DNA of 64,000 bases from Caldilineaceae bacterium SB0661_bin_34 (lineage in GTDB: Bacteria > Chloroflexota > Anaerolineae > Caldilineales > Caldilineaceae). A program made the position numbers and the translations under genes. The notes beneath the pieces were generated by a model, which had not been told where the DNA came from, ran no database searches, and worked only from the letters and a program-made list of their open reading frames with translations. Shown here piece by piece: positions 37,461 through 62,419 of the stretch (the first letter of the stretch is position 1; every line of letters starts with the position of its first letter). Where the stretch lies: positions 1 to 64,000 of the forward strand of contig VXMJ01000042.1 in NCBI GenBank assembly GCA_009841145.1, in the 5' to 3' direction.

Positions 37461-37642
37461 GCCGGCAAGGGCGAGGTTTGGTCACTGTTTCAATCTCGTT
37501 GATTTTGGTCCAAACCCGGTATCGACACCTCTGCCAAAGCTAGTTCCCTGTCTGTCCCAGCTCAGGTCATGGGCAGTAGCAGTAGGTTGTCCGCACCGAC
37601 GGCCGTGGGTATAGGTCAGGAACGATTCGGCCCTACTGCGGA

Positions 37643-43332: not shown

Positions 43333-43489
43333 ACACGGTTGTAACAAGAAACCTTGTTTGACAAATTGCAATGTCTGATTCGGCTCGGAGGATTCTACAA
43401 AATGACCCGAGCCGCCTTCCCAGTTGCTGAGAGCCCTGTGGGCGCGGAGGTCGGCGGCAATCGCAATCTAGCAGCCCCACCCAAAAGTG

Positions 43490-44050
43490 CCCGATCGGCT
43501 GTCACAATGTAGCCCTGCACCAGGACGTGGGGAATGACTGTGATCTCGTTGGACTGGATGTCAGTCTTCCGCTGGCCCAGGACCAGCTATGCCTCCACCG
43601 CCCAAGCACTGACCACGTTCAGCGTTGGCACCCCAACCAGCAGCAATCATGTGAGCAGCAGACAGCTTTGCCGTCGATGACGACCGCCTCGCCCGGCATC
43701 CGCACCGCCAGTGACTGTACCCAGCAACTGAAACAGCGTTCCAACTCCTCCGGTGAATCCCCCAAGACAAAGACCTATCCGTAGAAATCGTGCGAGGGAA
43801 TGCAGTGCGGCTGTGCCAAGAAGGTGGACAACCTGTCTCGTTGGCTGCGACCGAAGGGTACCCCCCGGCCACCAGTTGGCACCGCAGATCACTGCAAGGA
43901 GGGGCACGATGCCGCCGTGAAACAAATGCAGTCGGGCCGATTCCACACGGGAATCTTCTTTGTCGCCGCTGAAATCCACCAGGGGACCAGCAGCACAGGG
44001 GTTGGGAGTAATCAAAGGGAAATCCAGAAACGGAGCAGACCGCGCCGGTC
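43490..44050 (-). pseudogene. ISAs1-family transposase remnant
   Basis: Fragments in shifted minus-strand frames follow the ISAs1 transposase in order. First is LLAVICGANWW (consensus AVICGADDW), then IPSHDFYG-stop-VFVLGDS (consensus GIPSHDTFGRVF). Next are CWVQSLAVRMPGEAVVIDGK (consensus WV..L....GEVIAIDGKTLR), LNVVSAWAVEA-stop-LVLGQ and TDIQSNEITVIPHVL (consensus KSNEI.AIP.LL). At least two stops and several frameshifts are present, so it is long dead. No terminal repeats were located. It lies between the methyltransferase and the Argonaute gene. Confidence 0.75.
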
Positions 44051-44272
44051 TCAACTCAACCTCCCATTCACAACCCAAATGCCTCGTAGCTGGCGACCGG
44101 ACACATCATCGCGTCACTAAATCGTGTTACAATCACATCACCCGCGGTTGGCTAACAGACACGGAAACACACCAAGCCCATTCCACCAACAATCAACATC
44201 CCCTTCCACTGAGCAATCCAACTCAAATCTGTCCACACAATCACCTTGGCTTTCAAGGAGAACAGCTCCAGA

Positions 44273-46165
44273 ATGTCCGACATCGCGCTAAATTTGTTTC
44301 CTGTTTTGACGACAGATTTTTCATACACCTTATATCGTCACCCTTACATTGAGCAATATCGGCCCACCGTAGGCACCGAGCAGGCAATCCGCCGCTATTT
44401 GAACATAGACGGTACCAGTAACCACTACTGGACAACGTTTACACCATCACAAAATGGAACCAAAACAATCTGCAAGCCATACGACAACATTTACGCGACG
44501 CAGGCAGCCCTCCACACAGCACTCATTAACAAATGTGAGCATTCTTTATCTCCAAGCGAGTTTCACGTTTTGGGAACGCGGTTTCCACGTGTCGAGTTTG
44601 TACTAGCAGCGTACCCAGAAGGCGAACAGGTCGTTTCTATTGACCCATATTACTTGCGCAGCCGCCGCCTATTCGGTTTCAGGGCGCAATTCAGATTCCA
44701 TCCCCAAGAAGAACATCGTTACACTCCCAAAGCACTCCAACTTAGCTTAGCCCTTGACCGAAATGGCCATCAAAACAAAAATCGTTATGCAGACAGATAT
44801 ACCAAACTAGCTGAATTCATCAAAGAATACGAATCAGCCATATTCCACTTGGAGTTGCCTGGAGGTTGCACTGTGGAAGTGGCACCCCACTTAGCTAAAC
44901 TTCCAGTTAAACATCTTGACATCAAACATTATATTGTTAGCCGCCACCAAGAGGCCAATTCACAGTTTCTGGGGGTGAAAAACCATGGACCGCTAGACCA
45001 AGCTCAAAAAGACACCCGCTTTTGGTTCATTTACAGACCAGAAGACCGACCATTAGCACATGACTTGTTTCGAGCACTAAGGGGAGACACATTCCGCACA
45101 TTCCCCGGGATGGAACCCATGTTCCATCTCTCAATGCACAAAGACTACGTCAATGGTATTACGATATCAGATTTTACACAAGATGAAATCGAAAGAGTAT
45201 CCAACAAAGTGGCTTCAGATACTGACAATGTAATACCCATCGTGCTGACACCATTCGACAGAGATGACGATCCTGCCATAAACGGTCCATATTGGATGTT
45301 GAAATATGCATTTCTCGAAAAGCACTTACCACTCCAAGTAGTTTCAAACAACACAATCGCAAACAGAAACACACTCAAATGGTCTGCCGCGAGCATCGGA
45401 CTACAATCGTTCGCAAAAGCTGGTGGCACTCCATGGAAAGTACGTCCCCGAACTGAAAGTTGTTTAATCATCGGAGTAGGTCAAGCACATAAGCTGATCA
45501 ACGGTAAGATTGTGCGATACTTCGCTTTTTCTGTCCTTACAGACTCGAGCGGTGTATTCGAAGAAGTCAGGCTACTGGGAGAAGGTCGAAACGAAAGTCA
45601 GTACATTCAAGACCTGTCCATTAATCTGGCTGAAATCATCCAGGATTATTCTCACCGCTACACAAATTTCGTAGTCCACTCTACATTCGCAATTCAGCAT
45701 GCTGAACTCAGCAGCATCGCCGATACTCTTGAAGACCAACAAATGCAAGGACACGATGGTGCATTCGCTTCACTCAAGTTCAATGAGCACAATCGTTTCT
45801 TTGGATTTGCCCCTGAACATAATAGCCGCGTGCCATATGAAAGTACTTTGATTCGACTATCAACAAATGAATGCTTGGTGTGGTTCGAAGGGCTTTTGTA
45901 CGGACAAAGGACCGTCAAAAAAATGGTCGGCAATCCACTCCATGTAAGATTTTTGTATCCAAAAGAAGGACTTTCTGATTATCAACGCCTAGCCTATCTA
46001 CAGGATGCAGTAAACTTGTCGGGGGCCAACTGGCGTGGGTTCAACGCCAAGTCTCTACCTGTCTCAGTTTACTACGCGCAAATCATCGCCAAGTATTTGA
46101 AAGAATTCGACAATCTTGGCTTGGCACCGATTGATGTTCACACACTCAAACCTTGGTTCCTATAA
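44273..46165 (+). CDS. prokaryotic Argonaute, long-B type, catalytically inactive
   Basis: 630 residues from the ATG at 44273 (AAGGAG 12 bases upstream; a TTG at 44246 precedes the ribosome site and is unlikely). The MID domain is recognisable: YWMLKYAFLEKHLPLQVV and then SIGLQSFAKAGGTPWKV (about residues 341-395), the pattern Y..K....Q...GL...AK.GG.PW of pAgo MID regions. The PIWI domain begins LIIGVGQAHKLI, where active Argonautes have Asp (IGxD); here it is Gly. The later catalytic HRDG equivalent is VVHSTFAIQHAEL, also lacking Asp. It should thus bind guide and target without cutting. The N-terminal ~330 residues are long enough for N and PAZ-like domains, so it is not a short pAgo. The DNA is more AT-rich than its surroundings. 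It overlaps the SIR2 gene. Confidence 0.82.
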   Translation: MSDIALNLFPVLTTDFSYTLYRHPYIEQYRPTVGTEQAIRRYLNIDGTSNHYWTTFTPSQNGTKTICKPYDNIYATQAALHTALINKCEHSLSPSEFHVLGTRFPRVEFVLAAYPEGEQVVSIDPYYLRSRRLFGFRAQFRFHPQEEHRYTPKALQLSLALDRNGHQNKNRYADRYTKLAEFIKEYESAIFHLELPGGCTVEVAPHLAKLPVKHLDIKHYIVSRHQEANSQFLGVKNHGPLDQAQKDTRFWFIYRPEDRPLAHDLFRALRGDTFRTFPGMEPMFHLSMHKDYVNGITISDFTQDEIERVSNKVASDTDNVIPIVLTPFDRDDDPAINGPYWMLKYAFLEKHLPLQVVSNNTIANRNTLKWSAASIGLQSFAKAGGTPWKVRPRTESCLIIGVGQAHKLINGKIVRYFAFSVLTDSSGVFEEVRLLGEGRNESQYIQDLSINLAEIIQDYSHRYTNFVVHSTFAIQHAELSSIADTLEDQQMQGHDGAFASLKFNEHNRFFGFAPEHNSRVPYESTLIRLSTNECLVWFEGLLYGQRTVKKMVGNPLHVRFLYPKEGLSDYQRLAYLQDAVNLSGANWRGFNAKSLPVSVYYAQIIAKYLKEFDNLGLAPIDVHTLKPWFL

Positions 46166-47277
46166 TGGCAACTACAGTATTTAAGCGAGATGAAGTAATT
46201 CTCCTGCTTGGTGCCGGGGCCAGCGTAGAAGCTGGATTGCTGGATTCTAGTACAATGATTGATGAGATTGAGAAACTCATCTCTAGCGATCCTGCTTGGA
46301 TGTGTTATAGGGAGCTGTATCGGTACGTTCGAAGTTCAATTTTCTTCGCTGACGGCCTAGATGGTGTGTTCGATAAGAATGTGCCATTCAACATTGAGCG
46401 TTTGGTGAACGTACTGGATGAACTCTTGAAGAAGGAGCGGCATGCCCTTTGTCCATTCGTCGGAGCTTGGAATCCTAAGTTGCAAGAAGTTGCGGGGGAT
46501 GACTTCAAGAATGTACGGGACTTTCGCAATCTGATCGTCAAAATTCTAAGAGATGAGTGGGTTACTTTGAGCGAAACTGAGAAAGCTGGTTATTACGAAG
46601 GTCTTCTTCGTTTCCAAAGGCAGTATGAACACCCTTTGCGAGTATTTTCACTGAATTTCGATTTGTGTGTGGAACAGTCATGTGAATTGAAGAATGTTCA
46701 ACGGGGGTTTGATCTGAGAGTTTGGGATTGGCGCATGTTCGATGAGACTCTCGACGATTCACATTCATTACTACTCTACAAACTACATGGTTCACTCGAC
46801 TGGTATTTTAAGGATGGGCAAGTCCTGTATTCTGATGCGCCGACTAAGATTAAAGCTGATGAAATTGCATTGATTTTTGGCACGTCATACAAGTTGCAAT
46901 ACGTAGATCCGTTTCTTTTCTTCGCATACGAACTCCGTCGTTGGACACTAGATTCTGCGCGGCTCATCATATGTATTGGTTACGGCTTTAATGACGAACA
47001 TATCAATGGCATTCTTGGGCAAGCGCTCAGTCGGAACAATGAGCGGAAGCTACTCGCCGTGTTTGGACCGTCTGATGACTGTGATACTCTGAACGTAAAG
47101 ATCGCTAACCTGCTCGGCGCAAATCCGTCGCAGATGATCGTTGACAATTCTGGGGCACGTCAGTTTTTGGAAAGTGGTTTGAGAATTTCTCGGCTAGCTG
47201 AAAATTTCCCTGCTGAAGCAGACTTGATGGTTGAAATTATGGACTCTGCAGAAGGTCGATCAGGCTTCTCGGGATAA
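46165..47277 (+). CDS. SIR2-domain protein, Argonaute-associated effector
   Basis: 370 residues; the ATG at 46165 overlaps the Argonaute stop by one base (TAATG). SIR2 motifs are complete: NAD-binding VILLLGAGASVEAGLLD (residues 11-27), catalytic-site VFSLNFDLCVEQS (Asn-Asp), LYKLHGSLDWYF (His) and IICIGYGFNDEHIN. No APAZ domain or transmembrane segment is seen, which separates it from the fused SIR2-APAZ effectors of short pAgo systems. In long-B pAgo systems separate SIR2 proteins act as effectors that deplete NAD+ on invader recognition, causing abortive infection. The complete active site suggests this function here. The composition is AT-rich like the Argonaute gene. Confidence 0.85.
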   Translation: MATTVFKRDEVILLLGAGASVEAGLLDSSTMIDEIEKLISSDPAWMCYRELYRYVRSSIFFADGLDGVFDKNVPFNIERLVNVLDELLKKERHALCPFVGAWNPKLQEVAGDDFKNVRDFRNLIVKILRDEWVTLSETEKAGYYEGLLRFQRQYEHPLRVFSLNFDLCVEQSCELKNVQRGFDLRVWDWRMFDETLDDSHSLLLYKLHGSLDWYFKDGQVLYSDAPTKIKADEIALIFGTSYKLQYVDPFLFFAYELRRWTLDSARLIICIGYGFNDEHINGILGQALSRNNERKLLAVFGPSDDCDTLNVKIANLLGANPSQMIVDNSGARQFLESGLRISRLAENFPAEADLMVEIMDSAEGRSGFSG

Positions 47278-47619
47278 AGCGTCGTGCAATGGATGTGGCG
47301 TCTTGATTTTCCTTGACGACTCGCAGTGTGTGGACGACTGGGGGTGCCTCGGCGGTAGTTACCGAAATTACCATCAAGTCGGCAGGCATCCGTACAGGGC
47401 GCGATCACCTGCATGGCGGAGTGAATGGTTCTACCTGTCGTCAGCTTGAATTCACAGGTTGGGTTCCTGATGGTGTTCGCGGAAGTGATTTTCTGACTGG
47501 GTTCCACACACCGATCATGGTCGGTTCTTATATGGGTGCGGCGGACGTTCGGGTCGGTGTTGTGGGCACCGGTGCCTCGGGGTTCTGGCGATGCCGACTG
47601 GGCTGTGGTATTGGTCCAA

Positions 47620-47654
47620 CTCCTGCAGGCCATCTCCCAGACGGCCTGCAGGAG
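47620..47654. repeat. 12-bp perfect inverted repeat
   Basis: CTCCTGCAGGCC at 47620-47631 and its complement GGCCTGCAGGAG at 47643-47654, with an 11-base loop. It lies 343 bases after the SIR2 stop. There is no T-run, so it is a weak terminator candidate; it may instead be an end of a degraded element. Confidence 0.6.
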
Positions 47655-48049
47655 TCCAAGAACCGGCGGTCGTCAGACGGGGATAGGGTGTAAGGGTGAC
47701 CGGCCGTTCCTAGTACACCTGCAGCCCACAGTAGGCCGACACTGTGGACAACTGGAGGAAGAGGTCTAACAGAGACGTTCTGGTGGGCCGACTACCGACA
47801 TGGCTGAAGACGCAGTACCTTCGCTTCCTGTAGCTGAGGGCTCCTACCATAGCTTCGCTCAGACGAACGATACTCTACACACGCAAGATACGCGACACAG
47901 AACTCGCACTACCTTCAACGAGACTGTACCGGGTCGTCTCGATGCGAGTTGATATCCACACCCAGCCGGTATGATTGACCTTCACGAATGTGGGGCCAAT
48001 TGATCCCTGCTCGCAGTCGGCCCGATCCCATTTGCTTTACCTTCTGCAT

Positions 48050-48090
48050 TTCAGCTCCTCCAACTGCCCCAGCAGTTTGGAGGAGCTGAA
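48050..48090. promoter_or_regulatory. long hairpin in the leader of the helicase-DUF1998 gene
   Basis: The arm TTCAGCTCCTCCAACTGC (48050-48067) pairs with GCAGTTTGGAGGAGCTGAA (48072-48090) with a single bulged base and a 4-base loop. It sits just upstream of the likely GTG start at 48134. It could be an attenuator, an RNA processing site or a regulatory stem. It could also terminate the Argonaute-SIR2 transcript, although no T-run follows. Confidence 0.5.
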
Positions 48091-48133
48091 CTCCCATCTT
48101 CCGGACACTCAGTGCAACAACGTTGAAACAACC

Positions 48134-51100
48134 GTGCGATCTTCGCCCTTGGACCCGCCCACGCCCTTCACCGGCATCCTCCCCCTCGACTTGACCGAAC
48201 AGGCCAAGACCGCAGTTGAGGAGGTTCTCCGTGCCTCCTACAGGCCGTCGCCTCCCGCTTTCTCAAACCTCATCGACAACTTCGTCGCGAAACCCGACAA
48301 CCTCTTCCGAGGACCCTACCTGAGCCTAGACCTGCCCTACACCAGCGCAGATACCCTCACAGAGCCTTTCCCTTCGGTCCCGCTCGGTCACACCCCCTAC
48401 GCCCACCAACTGGAAGCCTTCCAGAGACTGCAACCCGACGCTCCTCGGTCAACGATCATCGCCACCGGCACGGGCTCTGGCAAGACCGAATGCTTCCAAC
48501 TGCCGATCCTCGACTGGTGCTACCAACACGCGGACCAACCGGGCATCAAGGCTATCGTCATCTACCCCATGAATGCCCTGGCTGAGGATCAGGCTAGGCG
48601 CATTGCAACCCGCATCTGGAACTCCCCGGAGCTGCGAGGGCGGGTCACGGCCGGCATGTACGCGGACGCGGAACCGCAGGACGCATCCCCCTCCATGCTG
48701 GAGGACGACATCATTCGGTCCCGCCGGGCGATGCACGAAACTCCTCCAGACATCCTGCTGACCAACTACAGGATGCTGGACAGCCTCCTGGTCCGTCCGG
48801 AACGCAAGGGACTCTGGGAACAGAACACACCTGAAACGCTGCGGTTTCTGGTCGTGGACGAACTCCACACCTTTGATGGAGCCCAGGGCACGGACCTTGC
48901 CTGTCTCATCCGCAGGCTGAAGGACCGCTTGGCCGTACCCAAGGGATCCCTGTGCTGCATCGGAACCTCCGCAACACTGGGAGACCAGAGCGATACCAAA
49001 CCTGTCATTGACTATGCCCAGGAGCTGTTCGACGTGGAGTTCGATGCGGATGCGGTGGTGACGGAGAACCGCCAGGATCTCTCCGAGTACCTCGAAACCG
49101 AAGAGGATATTGAACTGTCCAACCGCCTCCCCGACAAGGAACTGGTGGCAGACCTTGCCGGCCACACCGAGATGCAGGATCCCGTCCGTTTGATACGCCA
49201 CCTGTATCAAGCCTGGTTTGGGGACGAGGCGACGGAGGACATTGGTGGCGCATGGCGCGTCGAATTGGGCAACCAGTTGCGCTCGCACGAATTCCTGGCC
49301 ACTTTGCTCGGCGCCCTGAACGGAGGCATTCGACCGGTCGATGAGGTAGTAACCCACCTCCAAAGATCGTTCCCGGAGCTTGGTTCGTGGTCCCAGCCCG
49401 AAATACGAAACCTGCTTCAGGGATTCATGGCACTGCTGGCCTTCGCCAGAAGATCCGAGGAGGAAACCGACGAGCTGCGTCCCTTCCTCTCCATCCGTGT
49501 CCACTTCTGGATTCGCGAGCTGAAGCGCATGGTGGTGTCATTGCCACCGGATCCGGACCCAGCAGACACCACCACACAGGTCAACGTCAACAGCAACGAA
49601 CTACCGGATGATTTCCACACAGCGGCCCGGAACCAGGAGGCCGACCCGCGCCTGCTGCACTCCGACGACCTCCCCGACAATTTCGGAGAAGCAGTTCTAC
49701 CCGTTGTCCACTGCCGGGAATGCGCCGGCATGGCATGGGTGACCGCCACCAACCCGGACAACAGCGGCTTCGTGGAGGACAGGGACGCCATCTACCGGGA
49801 GTACTTCGCCAAGCCCCTGTCCCACAGGCTGGTCTACCTGCTGGCCCAGCCTCCGGACGCGACTCTCGTCTCGGGGTCAAGGGTGGTGCCAGGACATGTC
49901 TGTTGCCGTTGCCTGCGGTGGCAGACCTCGGCGGCCGGACGTCACGCAAGGTCTCCCGGCGCGTGCCCGGAATGCAACGCAAACGCCTGGCGTCAAGCAT
50001 GGAGGATGACTCCCGGCAAGAGCGGAGGTGACGGTCCGAGCCGCCGACGCGAATGGGCCTGCGCCTATTGCGGCTCGGCAACCGGCCTCGGCATCTTCGG
50101 CATGGCCTCAACCTCCATGGCCAGCTTCCTGACCTCCACCCTGTTTGCGTCCAGAGTCAACGAGGATCCCAAGCTGCTGGCCTTTGCCGACTCGGTGCAG
50201 GATGTGGCCCACAAGGCAGGTTTCATCGAAGCCCGCAGTTTCCGCACGGTATTGCGCCAGCAGGTGGCTGCCTGGCTGGCGGACCAACCCGGGACCCCGT
50301 CCCTGCCTGCCCTGATGGACGGATTCGCGCCTTGGGTCAAGGCCTCCTTCGACGATGATCGGGAGTTTGTGGGAGCCATAACCCACGTGGACCTCAAGTG
50401 GTTCAGTGCCGTCAACGACCTGTTCGAAGGCAACAACGATGGAAAACTGCCGGAGATCCCCGAACGCGACATCGAGGATGTGGGCCTACGCCTAACTTGG
50501 GAGGCCTTTGCCGAACTCACCTTCCTGTCCCGGTTCGGCCGCACCTTGGAAAACACGGGCAGGCTGTGCCTGGGTATCGACGCATCCCTATTGCAGCAGG
50601 CCGGACAGAGACTAGCCGCAGACGCGGGCGAACACTTGGGCTCCCTCTTTGAGGATGCAGACAGCAATGCCTGCACCTGGTTCCTCCTTGGGATCGTGCA
50701 CAGGATGATTCACGACGGCGCGATCCGGATCGATCCCAGCGGCTTGGATCCCATCGGCGGTTTGGCCCGGTCCAACGGGAGTTGGATTGGCATGGTCAGA
50801 TCCAGGAAAGTTGGCCACGTCCTTCCCGCATACAGCCCACGCGCCCGCAAGCCCCTGTTGCCCAGCCTCAACGGACGGGACGAGTTCGCACCCCTTGGCG
50901 ATGCCGGTTCATCGGCCCGGTGGTATCCCCACTGGGCGCGCAAGTGCCTGCCGGCTGGACCCAACCTCAAGGGAGATCTCCTTGAAGACCTCTACTTCCT
51001 GGCCTTCAGGCACCTGGAAGAGAGCGGCATTGCGGAACAGGTTCAACCAACCGGCAAGTCCCCCATCTGGGCATTGCGGGCCGAGCACATCACGGTTGAG

Positions 51101-54100
51101 CAGGACGCTGTCGCCCTAACATGCGACAGTTGCGGACGACGCATGCAGATCCCCGCCGGACAAATCCGGACCTGGACCGGCATGGTCTGCCCCAATCCGG
51201 GTTGCCCCAACGGCAAAATTGCGAACCGGCAGACGGAGATCCCGGCACCGCTGCTGGGTTCGCAGCTGACCCGCGGCCAGCGTCGCCGGGTCAACGCAAG
51301 GGACCACTCTGGCCTACTCGAAGCGGAAACCCGCAGACGCCTCGAACAGCAGTTCATGGATGGGGACCACAGTTGGTTCCCGAACGTCCTGTCCACTACC
51401 TCCACCTTGGAACTCGGCGTGGACATCGGCGATCTCTCCTCGGTCATGCTCTATGCGGTACCTCCCAGCCAGGCGAACTATGTCCAGCGGCTGGGCCGCG
51501 CCGGACGGAGGGACGGCAACTCCCTTGGCCTGACGGTGGTGAACGCCCGCCCTCACGACCTCTACTTCTGGCAGGACACCCTGGACATGATCCAGGGCTC
51601 GGTGGAGGTTCCCGGCCTCTACCTTGAGGCCTACGCCATCCTGCGCCGCCAGTTCAACGCCTACACCCTTGAACGGTTCATCACGGACACCGACAGGAAC
51701 GTTCCCTTCGGGACGCTTGCGAATGTAGCCTCCGGGACCAGAGGGCAACCCGGCACGGGAGCGCTGAATGACTGGATCGGCTTCGTGCGGGCCAACCGGC
51801 AGGATCTGCTGTCGGGATTCCGGACGATGTTCGCACTGCCTGCCGAAGGCGATCTCTTCACCAAGCTGACGGGTTTCGTCGAGGGAACCTTGCCGGGTGA
51901 TGCCTTCGCGAGTTCCATCCGAACTTGCCTTGAAGACGCACAGGAGGAGCGCAAGACGTGGACCAACCGGGCCAGGGCCGTGTCCCGGCAAATCGACCGT
52001 TTCAAGGCGAACAAGGCTCCGCCCAAGGACCTCGACGAGCAGATCCAGCAACTGGAAAGGGACATGCGGGCCTTCCGCCGCGTTGCCTCGGAACTCGGCC
52101 GTCAGGACCTGCTGCAGCTCCTGACCGAACGCGGTGTCCTGCCCAACTACGCCTTCCCCGCGGAAGGCATTCGCCTGCGATCGATCATCCTCTACCGGGC
52201 CGCGGAAGGGGCCGACCGGAGCTGGGTGAACAGAACCTACGAATACGCCCGGCCTGCCGCCTCCGGGCTGTCAGAGCTGGCCCCGGAAGCGTTCTTCTAT
52301 GCCGAAGGCCACCGCGTCACGGTCAATTCCGTGGATCTCAAAATCTCGGAGCCGGAACGGTGGCGCTTCTGCCCGGTCTGTCCCCACATGGAACTGGACG
52401 GCGAAGGGCAGGCCAAGACCTGCCCCGCCTGCGGCTCGAAGCAGTGGGGCGACCTGGGCCAGGTCCATGAAATGGTGCGCCTGCGGCAGGTGCATGCACA
52501 CAACAAGGACCGGGATTCCCGCATCAGGGACGACCACGAGGATCGAACCCTGACCCGGCACTTCCGGAACCTGTACCCTGCCTTCGACCGCCACGCGGCC
52601 GAGAAAGCCCACCTAATCCAGTCCCTGCCCCAGCCATTCGGCTTCGAGTTCCTGCGCGAGGTGGAGTTCACCGACATCAACTTCGGACGCGAAATCGACG
52701 AAAGGGACCTGGTCCACCATCGGCGCGTGGGCGGCAAGCACATCCTGGCCAACCCGTTCCGGCTGTGCAAGGAGTGCGGACACGCCCTGAAACGTAACCG
52801 CGAACCGGAACACATCACCGATGTACTCACCGGCCCCTCTCGCGAACCGGCCTGGAAGGATGAGCACGCCGTCCAATGCCCCGTCCGCCGCCTGCCGGAC
52901 GATGAAGACAGTGTGTTCGAAACCTACCTCTACTACGGTTTCCCGTCCGAGGCGGTGCGCATCCGCCTGCCGTTCAGCAGTGAACAGGAAACCGAGGTCG
53001 CGTCGTTTGCGGCGGCCCTACACCTGGGCCTGCGGTTGGTGTTCCAGGGCAAGGTGGACCACCTGCGCTCCCTACCGTTGTCCCTGCAGGAGAACCAGTA
53101 CACGTCGCACTGGTTGTTCCTGTACGACACGGTGCCCGGCGGCACGGGCTACCTGGAACGGCTGGCCTCGGCGAACATCTTTGAGGACGTGCTGCGCCGC
53201 GCGTTGCAGACCATGCTTGAATGCACCTGCAACCAGCATCAGGATGCAGACGAGGCCCAGCGCAAGGACGGGTGCTACCGCTGCCTCTACCGGTACCAGG
53301 ACAACCGCTACGACAGCGTTGTCTCGCGCGATGCCGCCATTCGCATCCTCCGCTCCATCCTCGACCAGTGGTACAAGATCCATCCCGTCGCCAGCGTGGA
53401 GATCGTCGAGCCGGACAGACTGGCCGAGAGCGAGCTTGAGGACCGCTTTGAGTCCTGGCTGGAAAAGCGGGTGCGCCGAGACGGCGGACACATTGAACGC
53501 TCCCCTCTGCCCGACGGCGGATCCGGTTATCGGATAGTGCTGGGAGACCAACTCTGGGAACTGAAGCGGCAGGTCCGTCTGGGTTCGGGAGACAGTGTGG
53601 CTGTGCCGTCCCAAGCGGACTTCATCCTGCGACCTGTGGGAAACGCAGACCCCGAGGTTCTGCCGGTGGCCCTGTTCATGGACGGTTGGCGCTACCACAA
53701 GGCCCGGGTAATCAAGGACGTGCACCAGCGACTGTCGATACACGCCTCCGGAAGGTTTCGGGTCTGGTCGCTGACTTGGCACGACATCGTGCAGGACAAC
53801 GACCCCAACGGCGAACGTGCCGCCTGGAACCCGTTCCGGGACCTGAAGATACCGGCCCGGCCGGCAACGGACGAAACCCAGGCTCTGGACAATATGGTGC
53901 GCAACGGCTCGGCCGCGGACCTGCTGTTTCACTACCTGTGCAATCCGACACCCAAGCTCTGGCGGGATCTGGCCTGCCGTCTGGCCCTGAACACCCTGGT
54001 CGTCCACAATGCATCATGGGATGACTGGCGGGAGGCCTTGGACGGCCTGAACGACATCTGCAACGACTTTGCCCAATCCCTGTCCTGGCACTCTCAGTTG

Positions 54101-54655
54101 GGCATGACCCGAAGCGGCGGCTCCTTTGTCGTGGCCGGTGCGGAGGACCAGGTCCTCACGGGCATGCCCAAGCCGGCCGACCTCCACCCCCTGCTGTACC
54201 TCAACACGGAAGGGAATCTGTCTCAAGCCGAGTGGGCAGGGGCATTGGGGACCTTCAACCTGCTGCAGTTCCTGCCCCTGATGCACTGGGTCTGCGCTTC
54301 CGATCCCAATCCGGAACCGTTCCCAACGGCCCCCTCGCCTGTGGGACCGGACCCGGACGGCTGGGAGGAGGCATGGGAATTTGCACAGGACGAAGCCCGG
54401 CCCCTGGTGGACGCTCTTCGCTCGCGGTCGATTCAGCCGCCGGAGGTGGGTTGGGAGGAACTTGCGTCGGGCGAAGTGTTCGTTGAACTCGAACTGGCCT
54501 GGCCGGACGGCAGAATAGGGATCTCCCTTACACCCCTTCCCGAACCGGAGAAGCGAAGGATGCAGGCAGGAGACTGGATTCTGTTCTCCCTTGAGGAAGC
54601 CCAGGACCAAATCGAGAAACTGCGATCAATCCTGAACGAAAGGTGCTCGGCATGA
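48134..54655 (+). CDS. giant helicase-DUF1998 protein with C-terminal nuclease-like region (DrmA/DrmB fusion or DruE-like)
   Basis: 2,173 residues from a GTG at 48134; the open frame reaches 47975 but the extra part overlaps a hairpin and lacks typical sequence. Walker A is IIATGTGSGKTECFQLPIL, the DEAD-like motif II is LVVDELHTFDGAQGTDLACL, motif III is CCIGTSATLG, and motif VI is YVQRLGRAGRRDGNSLGLTV with TSTLELGVDIGDLSSVMLYA before it. Several CxxC zinc-ribbon-like pairs lie in the middle (HVCCRCLRW, CGSATG, CPVCPHMELD, CPACGSKQW). The DUF1998 domain is near residues 1640-1760 (VPGGTGYLERLASANIFEDV, DGCYRCLYRYQDN). A C-terminal part (PSQADFILRPV, VALFMDGWRYHKARVIKDVH, RVWSLTWHDI) resembles the PD-(D/E)XK/Vsr-like fold seen in DruE and DrmB relatives. 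It overlaps the next gene by 4 bases. Confidence 0.82.
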   Translation: MRSSPLDPPTPFTGILPLDLTEQAKTAVEEVLRASYRPSPPAFSNLIDNFVAKPDNLFRGPYLSLDLPYTSADTLTEPFPSVPLGHTPYAHQLEAFQRLQPDAPRSTIIATGTGSGKTECFQLPILDWCYQHADQPGIKAIVIYPMNALAEDQARRIATRIWNSPELRGRVTAGMYADAEPQDASPSMLEDDIIRSRRAMHETPPDILLTNYRMLDSLLVRPERKGLWEQNTPETLRFLVVDELHTFDGAQGTDLACLIRRLKDRLAVPKGSLCCIGTSATLGDQSDTKPVIDYAQELFDVEFDADAVVTENRQDLSEYLETEEDIELSNRLPDKELVADLAGHTEMQDPVRLIRHLYQAWFGDEATEDIGGAWRVELGNQLRSHEFLATLLGALNGGIRPVDEVVTHLQRSFPELGSWSQPEIRNLLQGFMALLAFARRSEEETDELRPFLSIRVHFWIRELKRMVVSLPPDPDPADTTTQVNVNSNELPDDFHTAARNQEADPRLLHSDDLPDNFGEAVLPVVHCRECAGMAWVTATNPDNSGFVEDRDAIYREYFAKPLSHRLVYLLAQPPDATLVSGSRVVPGHVCCRCLRWQTSAAGRHARSPGACPECNANAWRQAWRMTPGKSGGDGPSRRREWACAYCGSATGLGIFGMASTSMASFLTSTLFASRVNEDPKLLAFADSVQDVAHKAGFIEARSFRTVLRQQVAAWLADQPGTPSLPALMDGFAPWVKASFDDDREFVGAITHVDLKWFSAVNDLFEGNNDGKLPEIPERDIEDVGLRLTWEAFAELTFLSRFGRTLENTGRLCLGIDASLLQQAGQRLAADAGEHLGSLFEDADSNACTWFLLGIVHRMIHDGAIRIDPSGLDPIGGLARSNGSWIGMVRSRKVGHVLPAYSPRARKPLLPSLNGRDEFAPLGDAGSSARWYPHWARKCLPAGPNLKGDLLEDLYFLAFRHLEESGIAEQVQPTGKSPIWALRAEHITVEQDAVALTCDSCGRRMQIPAGQIRTWTGMVCPNPGCPNGKIANRQTEIPAPLLGSQLTRGQRRRVNARDHSGLLEAETRRRLEQQFMDGDHSWFPNVLSTTSTLELGVDIGDLSSVMLYAVPPSQANYVQRLGRAGRRDGNSLGLTVVNARPHDLYFWQDTLDMIQGSVEVPGLYLEAYAILRRQFNAYTLERFITDTDRNVPFGTLANVASGTRGQPGTGALNDWIGFVRANRQDLLSGFRTMFALPAEGDLFTKLTGFVEGTLPGDAFASSIRTCLEDAQEERKTWTNRARAVSRQIDRFKANKAPPKDLDEQIQQLERDMRAFRRVASELGRQDLLQLLTERGVLPNYAFPAEGIRLRSIILYRAAEGADRSWVNRTYEYARPAASGLSELAPEAFFYAEGHRVTVNSVDLKISEPERWRFCPVCPHMELDGEGQAKTCPACGSKQWGDLGQVHEMVRLRQVHAHNKDRDSRIRDDHEDRTLTRHFRNLYPAFDRHAAEKAHLIQSLPQPFGFEFLREVEFTDINFGREIDERDLVHHRRVGGKHILANPFRLCKECGHALKRNREPEHITDVLTGPSREPAWKDEHAVQCPVRRLPDDEDSVFETYLYYGFPSEAVRIRLPFSSEQETEVASFAAALHLGLRLVFQGKVDHLRSLPLSLQENQYTSHWLFLYDTVPGGTGYLERLASANIFEDVLRRALQTMLECTCNQHQDADEAQRKDGCYRCLYRYQDNRYDSVVSRDAAIRILRSILDQWYKIHPVASVEIVEPDRLAESELEDRFESWLEKRVRRDGGHIERSPLPDGGSGYRIVLGDQLWELKRQVRLGSGDSVAVPSQADFILRPVGNADPEVLPVALFMDGWRYHKARVIKDVHQRLSIHASGRFRVWSLTWHDIVQDNDPNGERAAWNPFRDLKIPARPATDETQALDNMVRNGSAADLLFHYLCNPTPKLWRDLACRLALNTLVVHNASWDDWREALDGLNDICNDFAQSLSWHSQLGMTRSGGSFVVAGAEDQVLTGMPKPADLHPLLYLNTEGNLSQAEWAGALGTFNLLQFLPLMHWVCASDPNPEPFPTAPSPVGPDPDGWEEAWEFAQDEARPLVDALRSRSIQPPEVGWEELASGEVFVELELAWPDGRIGISLTPLPEPEKRRMQAGDWILFSLEEAQDQIEKLRSILNERCSA

Positions 54656-56832
54656 CCCAAACGGCAATCTACGACACCTTCATTGATGCCTTGCTGGAGT
54701 TGCCGCGCAATATCCAGCACAAGACCAAAATCCTTCTGCGAAAGCTTCAGCGCAACCCGAACGCTCCGGGACTCAACCTGGAAAGGATCCAGGACACCAA
54801 AAACCTGTATTCGGTGCGGGTCGACCGGGACTACAGGGGCGTGCTGGCCAAGTCCCAAGGCGACGGCGCCATCGTGATCCTCCATGTGGACAGCCATGAC
54901 AACGCCTATGCCTGGGCCCGGCGGCACCGGGCCGGGGTCAATCCGAACTCGGGCGTCTTCGAGGTCATCCCGTTCAGTTCACAGCCGACGGCTACCACCG
55001 ACAAACGGGAACCTGTCCGCGAATCTGCCGACGGCCTGTTTGAAGGGTTGAGGGACCGCAATCTGCGCAAGCTCAACATCCAGGACGATCTGATCCCCCT
55101 TGCCAGATCCGTCACCGGTGAGAAGGATTTTGCCTTGGTCGCCAATCGCTTCCCTCCGGAGGCCCAAGCTGCCATCGAGATGCTGCTAGCGGGGTATACG
55201 TACCAGGAAGCCCTTGACGAACTGCACGCTCCTGACACGAACGTGGACACGGACGACATCGACGCGGCTCTGGCCCGTTTCGGTTCACAGGGCCGCCTTT
55301 GGGTCGTGGATGACGAGGAGGAACTAAAGCGGATGCTGGACGCGCCGCAGGAGAAGTGGCGGGTGTTCCTGCACCCATCGCAGAGGCGGCTGGTCGACCG
55401 CGACTGGAATGGTCCCGTCCGTGTTCTGGGTGGTGCCGGCACCGGCAAGACCGTGGTCGCCATGCACCGGGCCAAGTGGCTCGCGCGGCACCGGGCCCGG
55501 CTGACAGACGGCAAGATCCTGTTCCTTACCTTCACGGCCAATCTGGCTGCGGACCTGAAGCGCAGCCTCAAGGACCTCATCACGTATGAAGAGGACTTCA
55601 AACGCGTGGAGGTGGTCCATCTCGACCAGTGGGTTTACCGGTTCCTGAGTCAGCACAACTTCCCGCAACGAATTGTGTACGACCACCACGACTCGAGTCG
55701 GCAACAGGCATGGAGCGAAGCCCTGAAGACCGCAGACCCCGACTTGGCCCTCGAACCGGAGTTCTACAAGGACGAATGGTCCAAGGTGGTCCTGGCCCAG
55801 GGCGCCCTGAGTGAAACCGAGTACCTGCGAGTGTTTCGGAAGGGACGCGGCACCCCTGTTACCCGTCCCAAACGCGCCCGCATCTGGCGGGTCTTCGAGG
55901 CCTACCGCGCACATCTGGCGGCCAACGGTTTGATTGAGAAGGAGGATGCCTACCGGGCCACGCGGCACCTGGTGGATGCCAATGCCGGTCAGCTGCCCTA
56001 TGTGTCCGTCATTGTCGACGAGGCCCAGGACTTGGGGTACGAGGCGTTCCGCCTGATTGCCTCCCTGGCGTGCATCAACCCCGGCGGGGATCTCCTAGAG
56101 CAACCGGGTCCCAACAGCCTGTTCATCGTGGGCGATGCCCACCAGCGGATTTACGACCAACACGTGGTGCTCGGCCGGTGCGGGATCAACATCAGGGGCC
56201 GCAGTTCGCGCCTGCGGATCAATTACCGCACCTCAAGGGAAATCCTGCACACCGCAGTGTCCGTGCTCGGCAACATCACTGCCGACGACCTGGACGGAGG
56301 CACGGACACCCTGGTCGGATACCGCAGCCTCTTCGGCGGTCCGGAACCCAAGTTCCTGGAAATGCAGGACATGGAACACGGAGCGACCCTGCTGCAACAG
56401 TGGATTGCCGCGCTCCAGTCGGAATTCGACTACGGCTTGCAGGACATCTGCCTTGTGTGCCGAACCAACTCACAGTGCAACACCTGGGACGAGGCCATCA
56501 GGAACACGAATCTGCCCACCCACAGGATCCAGACCGCGCGGGACACCCGCCAAACCGGGGCCGTTCAGCTGGCCACCGCCCATCGGGTCAAGGGTCTGGA
56601 GTTTCCGGCGGTCGCCATCCTGGATGCCGGTCCCGGCAATTTTCCCCTCAAGGTTGCCGTGAACACCGCCGGCAGCCGAGCAGACCGGGAACTGACGCTG
56701 CGCCGGGAGCGTTCCCTGTTGCATGTAGCGGTGTCCAGGGCCAAGCGACACTTGTTGCTTTGCACCCGTACGAGGTTCTCTCCGTTCCTCAAGCCGATGC
56801 TGGAGGCAGCGAGTGCCCGGTCGGATGATTGA
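54652..56832 (+). CDS. UvrD/Rep-type helicase fused to an N-terminal RelE/ParE-like domain
   Basis: 726 residues from the ATG at 54652, overlapping the helicase-DUF1998 stop (ATGA), with AAGGTG as ribosome site. Residues 1-95 resemble a RelE/ParE-fold domain: TFIDALLELPRNIQHKTKIL, then LERIQDTKNLYSVRVDRDYR and ILHVDSHDNAYAWAR. The superfamily 1 helicase follows: Walker A VLGGAGTGKTVVAMHRAKWL (about residue 260), motif II VIVDEAQDLGYEAFRL, motif III GDAHQRIYDQ, motif V TAHRVKGLEFPAVAIL and motif VI SLLHVAVSRAKRHLLL. All helicase motifs are intact. RelE-UvrD fusions are known in defence neighbourhoods. It forms a tight unit with the preceding gene. Confidence 0.85.
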   Translation: MTQTAIYDTFIDALLELPRNIQHKTKILLRKLQRNPNAPGLNLERIQDTKNLYSVRVDRDYRGVLAKSQGDGAIVILHVDSHDNAYAWARRHRAGVNPNSGVFEVIPFSSQPTATTDKREPVRESADGLFEGLRDRNLRKLNIQDDLIPLARSVTGEKDFALVANRFPPEAQAAIEMLLAGYTYQEALDELHAPDTNVDTDDIDAALARFGSQGRLWVVDDEEELKRMLDAPQEKWRVFLHPSQRRLVDRDWNGPVRVLGGAGTGKTVVAMHRAKWLARHRARLTDGKILFLTFTANLAADLKRSLKDLITYEEDFKRVEVVHLDQWVYRFLSQHNFPQRIVYDHHDSSRQQAWSEALKTADPDLALEPEFYKDEWSKVVLAQGALSETEYLRVFRKGRGTPVTRPKRARIWRVFEAYRAHLAANGLIEKEDAYRATRHLVDANAGQLPYVSVIVDEAQDLGYEAFRLIASLACINPGGDLLEQPGPNSLFIVGDAHQRIYDQHVVLGRCGINIRGRSSRLRINYRTSREILHTAVSVLGNITADDLDGGTDTLVGYRSLFGGPEPKFLEMQDMEHGATLLQQWIAALQSEFDYGLQDICLVCRTNSQCNTWDEAIRNTNLPTHRIQTARDTRQTGAVQLATAHRVKGLEFPAVAILDAGPGNFPLKVAVNTAGSRADRELTLRRERSLLHVAVSRAKRHLLLCTRTRFSPFLKPMLEAASARSDD

Positions 56833-56983: not shown

Positions 56984-57904
56984 ATGTTCCATCGACGTCG
57001 CCTTGTGTTGGCACTCCTGGAAACTCTGGGGGGAGAGGCAAACCTGAGGGACTTTCAGATGCACGCATTGCTCCTCACGCGAGGTCAGTCGCGCCCGTCA
57101 TACGACTTCATTCCGTACCGCTGGGGATGCCACTCGTTCACCTTGGAGGCAGATCGCAAGACCCTGATCCGTCACGGATGGCTACGTGACCGACCCGACT
57201 GGGTTCTCGACAACAAACCTCTTCCAGCCGGACAAGCTTCCAACCCACACTCCGCCTTGCTCACAAGCGATGACCAGGCCACGCTCGAACTCCATACGCA
57301 ACGATGGGGAACGCTAAGGGGAGGTCAACTTGCCAGGGAGGTGTACACTCGCTATCCGTTTTTCGCAACGCGCAGTGAAGTTGCAGATCAGCACCTCTCG
57401 CGTACCGGGTTGCTCAAGGTTCACGAGTGCATTCCCGTTCCCATGCCGGGACCTGCACTGTTCACAATTGGCTACCAAGGCAAGTCGTTCGAAAACTACC
57501 TGCAGCAGCTGATCAACTCACAAGTGAACGTGCTCTGCGATGTCCGGCGCAACCCGACAAGCCGAAAGATGGGCTTCTCCGGTGGCCCAATGCGCCGTGC
57601 CCTGAATGGACTGGAAATTGAATACCGGCACTTTCCTCGCCTTGGCATCGCATCGGATGCACGACGCAATCTCCAGACTCCAAGTGATTACGAACAACTG
57701 TTTGCCGAGTACCGTCAAACCACGTTGCAGACCAATGAAACCGACCTGCGAGCGATCATTCAGTTGTTGACTCAACGCAAGCGAGTGGCACTCACTTGTT
57801 TTGAGCTGGAACCCCACCAATGCCACCGCAGCAGCCTCGCAAAAGCGATTGTAGGCAGATTCATGTGCCAAGGCTTACAGTCGCTGACTTGCGACGATCT
57901 CTAA
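56984..57904 (+). CDS. DUF488-domain protein with N-terminal winged-helix-like region
   Basis: 306 residues. The C-terminal ~150 residues are DUF488: FTIGYQGKSFENYLQQLINS, VLCDVRRNPTSRKMGFSG and the closing motif LTCFELEPHQCHRSSLAKAI, which has the conserved C-x-E-x-x-x-x-C-H-R. The N-terminal part (LVLALLETLGGEANLRDFQM, SYDFIPYRWGCHSFTLEADR) looks like a winged-helix module common in this protein type. The molecular function of DUF488 is not established; it often accompanies defence helicases. It starts 151 bases after the UvrD gene on the same strand and ends the island. Confidence 0.78.
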   Translation: MFHRRRLVLALLETLGGEANLRDFQMHALLLTRGQSRPSYDFIPYRWGCHSFTLEADRKTLIRHGWLRDRPDWVLDNKPLPAGQASNPHSALLTSDDQATLELHTQRWGTLRGGQLAREVYTRYPFFATRSEVADQHLSRTGLLKVHECIPVPMPGPALFTIGYQGKSFENYLQQLINSQVNVLCDVRRNPTSRKMGFSGGPMRRALNGLEIEYRHFPRLGIASDARRNLQTPSDYEQLFAEYRQTTLQTNETDLRAIIQLLTQRKRVALTCFELEPHQCHRSSLAKAIVGRFMCQGLQSLTCDDL

Positions 57905-58257
57905 TCAAACACAAGCGAGTATTGATGACAGTCAAAACGTAACTGCTTCCGTCTCGTCAATGCGATGAACTGGTTTGTACGGCGGGAGCGCCTGAAGACG
58001 GCACTTGGTTCGCATCCACTCAATGCCCTCTCGATATCTCAAAGGCAACTTGCGATATCGGAATATGTGCAAACTGCCGGCACGGCCGGCGATTGATATC
58101 CCGATCCGGGCATGACCAAGTGCTTGTCATGGCATCCGTGTGAGCTCCTTGCGCACTACCGCAACGCTCCGCGCCGTCGCCTAGAATGGGAGACTCGCCG
58201 GCCTCTGCAATTGGGATGGGACTTTCCGCCGCGTACGGCCACCAAGGAGGAAAACCG
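57905..58257. other. intergenic region between the island and Uma2 copy 1
   Basis: 353 bases. The last ~140 are part of the 1-kb direct repeat. No gene, tRNA or hairpin recognised. Confidence 0.35.
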
Positions 58258-59077
58258 ATGCGTTTGCCACCGCCTGCCCCCGCTCCGCCACGGGCCCTCG
58301 GACGCGCGGAACTGGACGCCCTCTATCCCCTGGAGACCGACGAGCCCATGGCCTCTTCCCTGTCCCACGGCCGCGCCATGCAGTACGCCCAACTGGCCAT
58401 GAGCTACCACCTGCGCGACGTGGAGTGCCTGGTGGCTGCGGACTACATTTTCTACTACCGGGAACTGCCGCCCGAAGCCCCGGGACCGGCCCCGTCGGTA
58501 ACGCCCGACGTGATGGTGGTCTTGGACTTCACCCCGCCGTGGGACACCTCCTACCGGCTGTGGGAGGTGGGCAAGGCTCCGGATCTGGTGATGGAGATGT
58601 CCAGCCGCGCCACGCACCGGCAGGATCAGTTCCACAAGCATCATCTGTACGCCGAACTGGGCATCCGCGAATACTGGCTCCACGACCCGCACGGCGGCTA
58701 CCTGGAGCCGCGTCTGGAGGGCTGGCGGCTGGAGGAGGGCCTCTACCGGCCGATCGCCGGCGAGCTACAGCCGGAGTTGGGGGCGGAGACGTTTTACAGC
58801 GAAGTACTGGATACCCACTGGGGCCGCCTTCTGGACACCGAGGAGCTGCGCCTGTGGGACGAGGAGCGCGGCAACTGGTTTCTGCCTCCAGCCGAATCCG
58901 AAGCGGACCGTCTCCAGCAAACCCGCCGTGCGGACCGGGAAGCCCGACGCGCAGACCGGGAGGCACAGGCCCGCGCGGAATTGGAGCAGGAAGTGGCCAA
59001 ACTGCGGGCACAGCTGAAAGGGTTCTCGGAGTCGGAAGAATCCTGACCAAGCCTGGGTCCGATTGGGACGTCGGGCT
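58116..59077 (+). repeat. ~1-kb direct repeat, left copy (Uma2 gene and flanks)
   Basis: The block from CCAAGTGCTTGTCATGG (58116) to TCGGGCT (59077) recurs at 62716-63719. The upstream parts align without gaps exactly 4,600 bases apart. The right copy has an extra 42 bases inside the coiled-coil segment. Confidence 0.85.
58258..59046 (+). CDS. Uma2-family PD-(D/E)XK endonuclease (copy 1)
   Basis: 262 residues from the ATG at 58258, with a perfect AAGGAGG seven bases upstream. Nuclease core: SVTPDVMVVLDF (Asp), APDLVMEMSSRATHRQDQF (Glu), HKHHLYAELGIREYWLHDP (Lys/Tyr region). The tail is a charged coiled coil, QQTRRADREARRADREAQAR then AELEQEVAKLRAQLKGF. It is nearly identical to copy 2 at 62858 except in the tail, where it lacks 14 residues. 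The role of Uma2 proteins is not established; the repeated, nearly identical copies suggest recent duplication or exchange. Confidence 0.87.
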   Translation: MRLPPPAPAPPRALGRAELDALYPLETDEPMASSLSHGRAMQYAQLAMSYHLRDVECLVAADYIFYYRELPPEAPGPAPSVTPDVMVVLDFTPPWDTSYRLWEVGKAPDLVMEMSSRATHRQDQFHKHHLYAELGIREYWLHDPHGGYLEPRLEGWRLEEGLYRPIAGELQPELGAETFYSEVLDTHWGRLLDTEELRLWDEERGNWFLPPAESEADRLQQTRRADREARRADREAQARAELEQEVAKLRAQLKGFSESEES

Positions 59078-60764: not shown

Positions 60765-62419
60765 CTTATATACCTGACTGATCGCCCGAAGCCGCAGCCC
60801 CTGGCGGTGGCGGCATATCTTGTTCGCGGGTCGTCGATGCCGATTTGCCCTGGGCTGGCGGCCCAAGGCAGTGACCGAGCGCATCTCGCCGCGCAGTTGC
60901 CCCTGTCCCGCGGGCCGTCGGGTCGGGAGCGGAAAATCCACCCCCAACCAAAATGTTGATGGCGGCGTTGTGGTCGGCGTTCGCCTTGAATCCACATGCC
61001 GTACAGTTGAAATTCGCCTGTGTTTTGCGGTTCTCCTTGTTGACGTTCCCGCAATGGGAACAGGTTTGCGACGTATACGCCGGATTGATGCGCTTGACTG
61101 CGCCCGCCTTGTAGTCCAGGTTGCGGTCGAGGGCTCCCCAGCCGCTCGCCAAGACGGATCGGTTGAGTCCGGACTTCTGCTTTACGTTGAGGCCGGGCTC
61201 CTCAACCGTGCCCTTCGCACTCTTCGTCATGGCCGCGGTGTTCAGGTCCTCCAGAACCACGGTGTGCGCCGTGTTGGCGATTTTGCGGCTGTGCTGGTGG
61301 GCGGCGTTCTCCCGCCGTCGCTTCTTCTTGCGGTGCAGCTTCTTCAGTTGCCCGTTCACGCGCCGCCCGCGGTTGGATTTCTTCTGCCCGCGGGTTTTTG
61401 GTCCCCAACCCTTCTTGCGACTCAACTCCCGCTGCTTGCGCTTGATCTTCGTGTCAATCAGGGAGTCGTCGGGGCTCTCGTACACAACCCCATCGCTGTC
61501 CGTGGCCTGGCCGACATTGCGATCCACCCCCAGCGCGCCCGTCCAAGCGGGCTGCTTCAGGCGGTCCGGGGTCACGTGGTAGGACACGATGGCATACCAC
61601 TTGGGACGGTCCTCCGTGCCCTCCCGGATGATGCGCACCTGCTTGGCATCACAGCCCAAATACTGGCCGCTGCCGTCCAACCGCACCCAGCCAGCCTTCG
61701 GGATGCGGAGACGTTCGCCGTCCATGCGCACGCCGTCCGGGATGGTGAAGCCGTCGCACTTCACGCCGAACCCCTTGCGCCGCGGGAACCCCTGCGGCTT
61801 GCCGTCCGATTTGCGCCGGGGCAGCTTGCGGCCCTGCTTCTTCGCCTCCTTGGCCGCCTTGTAGAAGCGCTTGTAGGAGTCCGCCAGGTACTTCAGGGAG
61901 TAGCGGACGGGTGCGAAGGGCAGATCCCGCAGCCAGGCCAAATCCCGGTCCCGGTAGTACTCGCCGCGGTCGGATTGGAGGAAGTCCAGGTACCACTCTT
62001 CCTGTGGGCGGCTCCGAACCACTGTGAACAGCTTGAACAAATCGAACGCACTGGTACCGGGCGGCTTGGCCTCCGGATCGGACTCCTTCTCCGCCAGGTG
62101 GCGGTCGTACCGCCATTCGCAGATCGTCAACACCAGATTCCAAACGAACCGGTTGGCGCCCGCAATCCGAGCGCAGTAGGCGGCTTGGGCGCGGTTGTCG
62201 AACCGCACGCGGTACCGCTCGTTGCGTACCTGGGGCTCGCCGTGGGGGAGTGGCTGGATTGTAGAATGGGGGTCGGCGGTCATTCGGTTGCCTCTACAAC
62301 CTGGCCGTCAGGGAGCCGTGCGGTGTTCCAGCACCCGCGGCTTCCGCCCATTGTACAACAGGCCCCGTGCCAACCGCGGGGCCGTGTGCCCAACATATTA
62401 GTCAAGTATATAATCCCCA
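60765..62419 (-). mobile_element. TnpB-only IS605/IS1341-type element with inverted-repeat-like ends
   Basis: A single tnpB gene without tnpA. On the minus strand the left boundary is TGGGG-ATTATATACTTGACTAA (from 62419) and the right boundary AGGTATATAAG-TC (to about 60763). The two ends are imperfect inverted repeats (GGGACTTATATACCTGACT against GGGGATTATATACTTGACT, 16/19). The right end overlaps the last codons and the TAA of tnpB. The same ends bracket the 236-bp element at 11568-11803. Guide RNA (omega RNA) is expected to overlap the 3' end of tnpB and extend past the right end. Confidence 0.7.
60766..62283 (-). CDS. tnpB: RNA-guided nuclease TnpB
   Basis: 505 residues. The RuvC-like site is complete: first Asp in GALGVDRNVGQATDSDG, Glu in TVVLEDLNTAAMTKSAKG, final Asp in KANADHNAAINILVGGG. 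The zinc ribbon is CSHCGNVNKENR followed by NFNCTACG. A basic region (KIKRKQRELSRKKGWGPK, KKLHRKKKRRREN) binds nucleic acid. The last ~50 residues after the final Asp are low-complexity (PPPPGAAASGDQSGI) and probably reflect the overlapping guide-RNA scaffold rather than folded protein. TnpB cuts DNA using a guide RNA encoded at the element's right end and helps the element persist. No TnpA transposase is nearby, so transposition would need one in trans. Confidence 0.9.
   Translation of the reverse strand: MTADPHSTIQPLPHGEPQVRNERYRVRFDNRAQAAYCARIAGANRFVWNLVLTICEWRYDRHLAEKESDPEAKPPGTSAFDLFKLFTVVRSRPQEEWYLDFLQSDRGEYYRDRDLAWLRDLPFAPVRYSLKYLADSYKRFYKAAKEAKKQGRKLPRRKSDGKPQGFPRRKGFGVKCDGFTIPDGVRMDGERLRIPKAGWVRLDGSGQYLGCDAKQVRIIREGTEDRPKWYAIVSYHVTPDRLKQPAWTGALGVDRNVGQATDSDGVVYESPDDSLIDTKIKRKQRELSRKKGWGPKTRGQKKSNRGRRVNGQLKKLHRKKKRRRENAAHQHSRKIANTAHTVVLEDLNTAAMTKSAKGTVEEPGLNVKQKSGLNRSVLASGWGALDRNLDYKAGAVKRINPAYTSQTCSHCGNVNKENRKTQANFNCTACGFKANADHNAAINILVGGGFSAPDPTARGTGATARRDALGHCLGPPAQGKSASTTREQDMPPPPGAAASGDQSGI

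Follow-up and report, generated by a model that had tools for sequence, protein, structure and literature searches.

What kind of defence system is encoded by a locus in which a single long polypeptide unites a helicase, a DUF1998 domain and a nuclease-like C-terminus? The protein in question lies in a 64,000 nt stretch of DNA from Caldilineaceae bacterium SB0661_bin_34 (contig VXMJ01000042.1, positions 1 to 64,000 of the forward strand), referred to below as the window. A preliminary description had presented it as a possible bridge between DISARM and Druantia, with the C-terminal nuclease standing in for the absent DISARM effector DrmC. Our analysis assigns the protein instead, almost certainly, to ARMADA type II, an anti-phage system of four genes in the order ArmA, ArmB, ArmC, ArmD (Bell et al. 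2025, PMC12458937), of which it is the ArmC component. While this kind of ArmC has already been described, a pair of Argonaute and SIR2 genes at the ArmB-ArmC junction, and the possible cargo slot to which it points, are new relative to the main text of the ARMADA paper.

The armC frame (48134-54655, plus strand) runs without a stop through 2,173 residues, slightly more than the 2,170 given previously, and an in-frame TTG further upstream at 47975 would extend it to 2,226 residues; the opposite strand is interrupted by stop codons. Profile scans of the operon proteins with Pfam and the PADLOC-DB 2.0.0 models confirm the predicted union of a YprA/DruE-like helicase with DUF1998 in one chain. 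The RecA1/DEAD domain (residues 90-284, 48401-48985; Pfam DEAD, E 5e-22) carries a Walker A lysine, K117, and a DELH aspartate, D242, which are invariant among 10 homologues and equivalent to K110 and D234 of the E. coli protein. It is followed by a zinc-binding cluster (residues 527-646, 49712-50071) with CxxC motifs at 527, 590, 611 and 643, four of the nine such motifs in the protein, by RecA2/Helicase_C (residues 1051-1126, 51284-51511; Pfam 2.5e-10) and by the DUF1998/MZB zinc domain (residues 1626-1718, 53009-53287; Pfam MZB 2.3e-11). The strings DFILRPV, FMDGWRYH and VWSLTWHD are present in the tail as described. Homologues from Alphaproteobacteria, E. coli and cyanobacteria are collinear with the window protein over ~97% of its length at 31-37% identity, and the existence of such long collinear relatives in distant taxa indicates that this architecture is not due to chance.

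The identity of the system is settled by the genes next to armC, which encode BrxHII/DrmD-like, PglX/DrmMI-like and UvrD/GajB-like proteins, all on the plus strand. ArmA (34449-37364, 971 aa) is a BrxHII/DrmD-like SNF2 helicase (PADLOC DrmD 330 bits; Pfam SNF2-rel_dom and Helicase_C) and shares 39-43% identity with the ArmA proteins of collinear ARMADA II operons. ArmB (38686-43332, 1548 aa) is a PglX/DrmMI-like N6-adenine DNA methyltransferase matching the PADLOC type IIG and DrmMI models and Pfam Eco57I. ArmD (54643-56832, 729 aa), whose gene overlaps that of ArmC by 13 bp, joins a RelE/ParE-like N-terminus to a GajB/UvrD-like helicase (Pfam UvrD-helicase, 2e-19, and UvrD_C; the ParE_like match at residues 23-85, E 5e-5, is slightly under the Pfam cut-off) and is collinear with ArmD at other loci. 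The eight residues that were mutated in E. coli ARMADA II, which belong to Walker motifs, GxG and NPPW, are all retained, two in each protein: K141 and D241 of ArmA (E. coli K136/D236), G569 and N923 of the NPPW motif of ArmB (G605/N971), the two ArmC residues mentioned above, and K269 and D459 of ArmD (K266/D454).

Phylogenetic analysis led to the same assignment. A FastTree phylogeny of 44 proteins grouped the core ARMADA II sequences, with the window ArmC among them, in one clade with a support of 100 and placed actinobacterial relatives beside it, while IQ-TREE with 21 proteins gave 100/100 to each of three groupings, the clades of ARMADA II and of ARMADA I and a split holding Druantia. 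The window thus contains an ortholog of a known system together with its full gene complement, one of the two outcomes that the preliminary description had named as refuting its view; the other, lack of a nuclease fold, did not occur (see below). Among the non-redundant ARMADA II loci that we compared, the order A-B-C-D was seen in 18 of the 19 with all four genes, the exception (L011) being rotated to C-D-A-B. This order occurs in plasmids of Microvirga, Nostoc, Pseudanabaena, Haematobacter, Martelella, Gemmobacter and E. coli, and also in chromosomes and contigs from viral collections; a scan of viral sequences in which the E. coli ArmC served as query gave no matches. The nearest relative, with a 90% identical ArmC, is found in a Caldilineaceae metagenome-assembled genome (locus L001, a sister lineage), and an ArmC-like protein is likewise encoded in a genome from the same genus.

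The C-terminal tail, for which the preliminary description had proposed a PD-(D/E)XK or Vsr-like fold, showed no Pfam match, nor did its direct profile comparison with PDB sequences give one. AlphaFold2 modelled the whole 452-residue tail with a mean predicted local distance difference test score (pLDDT) of 73.6. Since Foldseek returned only weak and mixed matches for this model, the nuclease domain (residues 1762-1887, 53417-53794) was folded alone. The result (mean pLDDT 75.8) consists of a helix, five strands, a helix and a strand. In VIA-align its top match was BsoBI (Z 9.2, 131 residues, 3.5 Å), followed by BstEII (6.2), VRR_NUC (6.0), TnsA (5.9) and Hjc (5.5); these Z values are mostly below 8, and the support lies in the consistency of the family, as the top ranks are restriction enzymes and related PD-(D/E)XK proteins, and not in any single match. 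Residues E1769, D1829, D1850-G1851, H1855, D1862 and R1866 are invariant in ten to twelve distant full-length homologues. The models together with these motif residues support the presence of a PD-(D/E)XK-type nuclease domain, which would be a normal part of an ARMADA protein and not a substitute for DrmC. The subtype label Vsr-like follows here the pattern of motif residues and the account of Bell et al. (PMC12458937) only, Vsr not being among the structural matches of the nuclease models. A second restriction-endonuclease-like domain, probably inactive, may occupy the extreme C-terminus (residues 2076-2171, 54359-54646). VIA-align matched the corresponding part of the model (350-452) to 3hrl (Z 8.0) and to PvuRts1I (Z 5.7), and the acidic/histidine set that marks the first domain shows no conservation there, so that this region resembles a decayed domain of the PD-(D/E)XK-like kind. 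Such a two-domain tail agrees with the text of Bell et al., according to which ArmC has a Vsr-type domain predicted to be active, often followed by inactivated ones (PMC12458937).

We consider it likely that the first nuclease domain is catalytically active. Alternatively, the operon could be an ARMADA II system whose nuclease fold is dead and has kept DNA binding only, cleavage being left to another component or to host nucleases. Inactivated Vsr domains are described for Druantia I/II, and the text of the ARMADA paper reports mutants of the Walker and methyltransferase motifs but none of the nuclease (PMC12458937). However, E1769, D1829, D1850 and H1855 are invariant at ~33% identity, unlike the equivalent positions of the decayed second domain, and Bell et al. 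predict the domain to be active, which makes the loss of catalysis an unlikely explanation.

With an active nuclease, a plausible course of events, in which we have only slightly better than even confidence, would be the following. According to work cited by Bell et al. (PMC12458937), YprA-family helicases translocate 3′-5′ on single-stranded DNA with the DUF1998 module acting as a canopy. ArmC would load onto single-stranded DNA or replication intermediates of the invader, move in the 3′-5′ direction with the strand gripped by the canopy, and cut the invading DNA with its C-terminal nuclease, a PD-(D/E)XK enzyme instead of a phospholipase D-like (PLD) nuclease. ArmA and ArmD could provide additional ATP-driven motors helping ArmC, whereas methylation by ArmB would likely spare self DNA, ArmB probably marking or reading self. 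Protection should be direct and not abortive; in E. coli, ARMADA II defence needs ArmB and acts without killing the cell, as reported in the text of the same paper (PMC12458937).

Several observations weigh against this interpretation of the locus. For the isolated nuclease domain Foldseek found nothing at E ≤ 0.001, the best rows being TnsA (E 0.02, probability 0.89), and the fold is taken from models whose confidence is medium (mean pLDDT 74-76, 10 sequences). An hhalign comparison with an annotated Vsr sequence reached a probability of 6% and aligned only the ADF...DG...H motif, albeit the right one. The action of ARMADA II in Caldilineaceae is deduced from the genes and from the E. coli system. 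Moreover, the protein is rare in the phylum: only one of 301 sampled Chloroflexota genomes, the window's own, has it, a distribution that fits horizontal acquisition. On balance we hold it to be very probable that an intact ArmA-ArmB-ArmC-ArmD operon of ARMADA II, working in the general manner of this system, is present in a Caldilineaceae-like Chloroflexota genome.

The preliminary description, framed around armC, had left out two genes nested between armB and armC. The first (44246-46165, plus strand) encodes a prokaryotic Argonaute (pAgo) of 639 aa with a Piwi domain (PADLOC pAgo_II 636 bits; Pfam Piwi 7e-13), the PIWI part of which matches AfAgo. The second (46153-47277, plus strand) overlaps it and encodes an Argonaute-associated SIR2 protein of 374 aa (PADLOC Aga_SIR2 386 bits; Pfam SIR2_2). 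The pair recalls BPAS, in which a catalytically inactive long-B pAgo lacking the DEDX tetrad acts autonomously with the SIR2 effector bAgaS, which depletes nicotinamide adenine dinucleotide (NAD) once the Argonaute meets an invader (PMC10620215). Common to both is a SIR2_2-domain protein that stands alone next to a pAgo. It might be argued that the pair and the four Arm genes form a single integrated system, as all genes are co-directional and the pair sits inside the operon. Yet the pair is set off by gaps of 0.9 kb to its left and right, other ARMADA II loci have no such genes or have unrelated cargo at this junction, and long-B pAgo/SIR2 systems of the BPAS type act on their own (PMC10620215). 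We therefore regard integration as improbable, and the pAgo/SIR2 pair is more probably a distinct module, of predicted abortive and NAD-depleting action, that is cargo within ARMADA II.

To place this pair in context we counted inserts of 600 bp or more at each junction of the non-redundant ARMADA II loci. They were found at the B-C junction in 9 of 21 loci, at the A-B junction in one of 19 (the window itself) and at the C-D junction in none of 25. Fisher's test of B-C against the other two junctions combined gives p 7e-5, a figure to be taken as a guide only because the loci were not sampled at random and include related ones. The cargo differs at each locus, without relationship between loci, and is mostly defence-like. 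Besides pAgo and SIR2 in the window (43333-48133) it comprises a Ser/Thr kinase (L002), a MoxR-like AAA protein (L008), an IrrE-like peptidase (L012), a TmtA-like protein of 1834 aa with DUF932 (L057), a 466-aa protein of unknown nature with a Schlafen/AlbA_2 protein (L058), an unknown 284-aa protein (L060), PDC-M28-like genes (L085) and lipoprotein-like open reading frames (ORFs; L088). We count as defence-like the pAgo+SIR2, TmtA-like, Ser/Thr kinase, Schlafen/AlbA-type, PDC-M28-like and IrrE-like types.

In two pairs of loci both an empty and a filled B-C junction are seen: Martelella against Haematobacter, whose armC genes are 99.5% identical in DNA, and Aulosira against Nostoc. In addition, a relic of the armB 3′ end lies within or downstream of the cargo at L057 (87% identical) and L085 (75%); a duplicated armB end was looked for in the B-C gap of the window and was not found. 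The window does have duplicated ends at its A-B junction, which in none of the other 18 non-redundant loci exceeds 53 bp. Here a 1.3-kb insert (37365-38685) is bounded by two imperfect repeats, in direct orientation, of the A/B junction (37271-37480 and 38541-38760), with a relic of the armB start at its left end (74% over 73 bp) and of the armA end at its right end (72% over 131 bp). These copies may have been left by a duplication, or by recombination with a second ARMADA locus. At L001 a relic of armD follows a 5-kb insert and precedes a DUF488 gene (L001 10468-15880); judging by their translations, the ORFs between the intact armD and the relic encode a PHP-like ATPase (957 aa) and a Schlafen/RecG-like protein (413 aa). 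The L001 contig ends in a transposase-like gene ~0.7 kb upstream of armC and covers the B-C junction only that far.

The empty and occupied pairs together with the duplicated gene ends indicate that cargo comes and goes, and homologous recombination between ARMADA loci would leave marks of the kind seen at L057, L085, the window and L001. Tentatively, and with somewhat less than even confidence, we suggest that the B-C junction is a dedicated slot where foreign genes, often for defence, are gained and lost through recombination that duplicates the ends of Arm genes and leaves the core intact. ARMADA II might then be a small defence island of modular build on an unvarying chassis, the cargo of which may serve as a backup when the core fails. 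As far as term searches show, the main text of the ARMADA preprint does not mention such a slot (PMC12458937). If real, it would offer a testable case of a defence operon that takes up unrelated genes for defence at a single, constant site within it.

Downstream of armD and outside the conserved core, the window encodes a DUF488 protein of 306 aa (56984-57904, plus strand; Pfam DUF488 1.7e-22; PADLOC PDC-M19A 304 bits). This gene is kept in the sister lineage L001, beside the armD relic, and was not identified adjoining armD at other ARMADA II loci; a literature search for DUF488 in defence did not find the term in the papers listed. A gene for a Schlafen/AlbA_2-domain protein (32467-33801) lies just upstream of armA on the opposite strand. 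Three genes for putative endonucleases of the Uma2 family (PF05685) flank the island (30601-31944 on the minus strand, 58186-59046 and 62786-63688 on the plus strand), and a TnpB/IS605 OrfB-like (Cas12f-like) ORF of 505 aa is found at 60766-62283 on the minus strand.

There remain the two systems between which the protein had originally been placed. That the locus is a DISARM variant, with DrmA and DrmB fused and the tail in place of DrmC, is scarcely credible: ArmA and ArmB do match the DrmD and DrmMI models and helicase and DUF1998 do share one chain, but the DrmA models give 57 bits against 330 for the DruE models, no separate DrmB exists since both modules lie in the one 2173-aa ORF, a true DrmA+DrmB concatenate falls outside the ARMADA II clade on a very long branch (FastTree), and the full four-gene set is that of ARMADA II. 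It is just as implausible that ArmC is a Druantia DruE or defines a Druantia subtype. DruE1 and DruE3 are indeed its top PADLOC models, in line with the earlier remark that DruE resembles the fusion. However, the window ArmC scores 332/315 bits with them, the E. coli ArmC 326/350, and the true E. coli DruE3 reaches 2180 with its own model, about seven times more. A constraint grouping the window ArmC with Druantia was rejected (IQ-TREE, 21 proteins; approximately unbiased test, p-AU 4e-44), neither DruH nor DruA is among the operon genes scanned, and E. coli carries Druantia III and ARMADA II adjoining as distinct systems, in the published chromosomal Zorya II - Druantia III - ARMADA II array from which our DruE comparator was taken. 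As PADLOC-DB 2.0.0 matches ArmC to DruE models, ARMADA II could be miscounted as Druantia. Near Druantia in the tree is a cluster of YprA-family proteins of 1,500-1,670 aa from other Chloroflexota (L034, L039, L040, L042, L043 and L050), almost without C-terminal extension and with few recognised partner genes, which are possibly Druantia III-B-like. TALON, considered as a system largely confined to Chloroflexota, was rejected on gene content: its TPR-CSD, TBP and NERD-nuclease parts are not among the operon genes scanned, and the ArmC C-terminus is PD-(D/E)XK-like and not RNase H-like.

The idea of a bridge between DISARM and Druantia was therefore sound but not new, ARMADA having already been called the 'missing link' between the two in the text of Bell et al. 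(PMC12458937), and the supposed hybrid is dropped from the list of new systems and filed as ARMADA II. DISARM shares with it the helicase plus DUF1998 module and the DrmD-like and DrmMI-like partners, but has helicase and DUF1998 in two genes and a PLD nuclease, DrmC, and is far away in the tree. Druantia type III DruE likewise has a YprA-family helicase, DUF1998 and a C-terminal nuclease; it differs by the PLD nuclease domains of DruE3 and the DruH partner (PMC13192584) and is also distant. ARMADA type I forms a separate clade (support 100), usually with the order YprA-helicase-methyltransferase, and lacks ArmD. Auxiliary effectors are likewise found inside BREX loci (PMC12839542), to which the B-C cargo would be similar if the slot is real. 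With known ARMADA type II the window shares the set of genes with their order and orientation, the eight residues tested by experiment, the ArmC domain order including DUF1998 and the C-terminal Vsr-like nuclease, and the RelE-like N-terminus of ArmD. It departs from it in the DUF488 neighbour, the pAgo-SIR2 pair between armB and armC, the 1.3-kb insert with its duplicated junction between armA and armB, and its host, by which the range of ARMADA II now includes a Chloroflexota genome.

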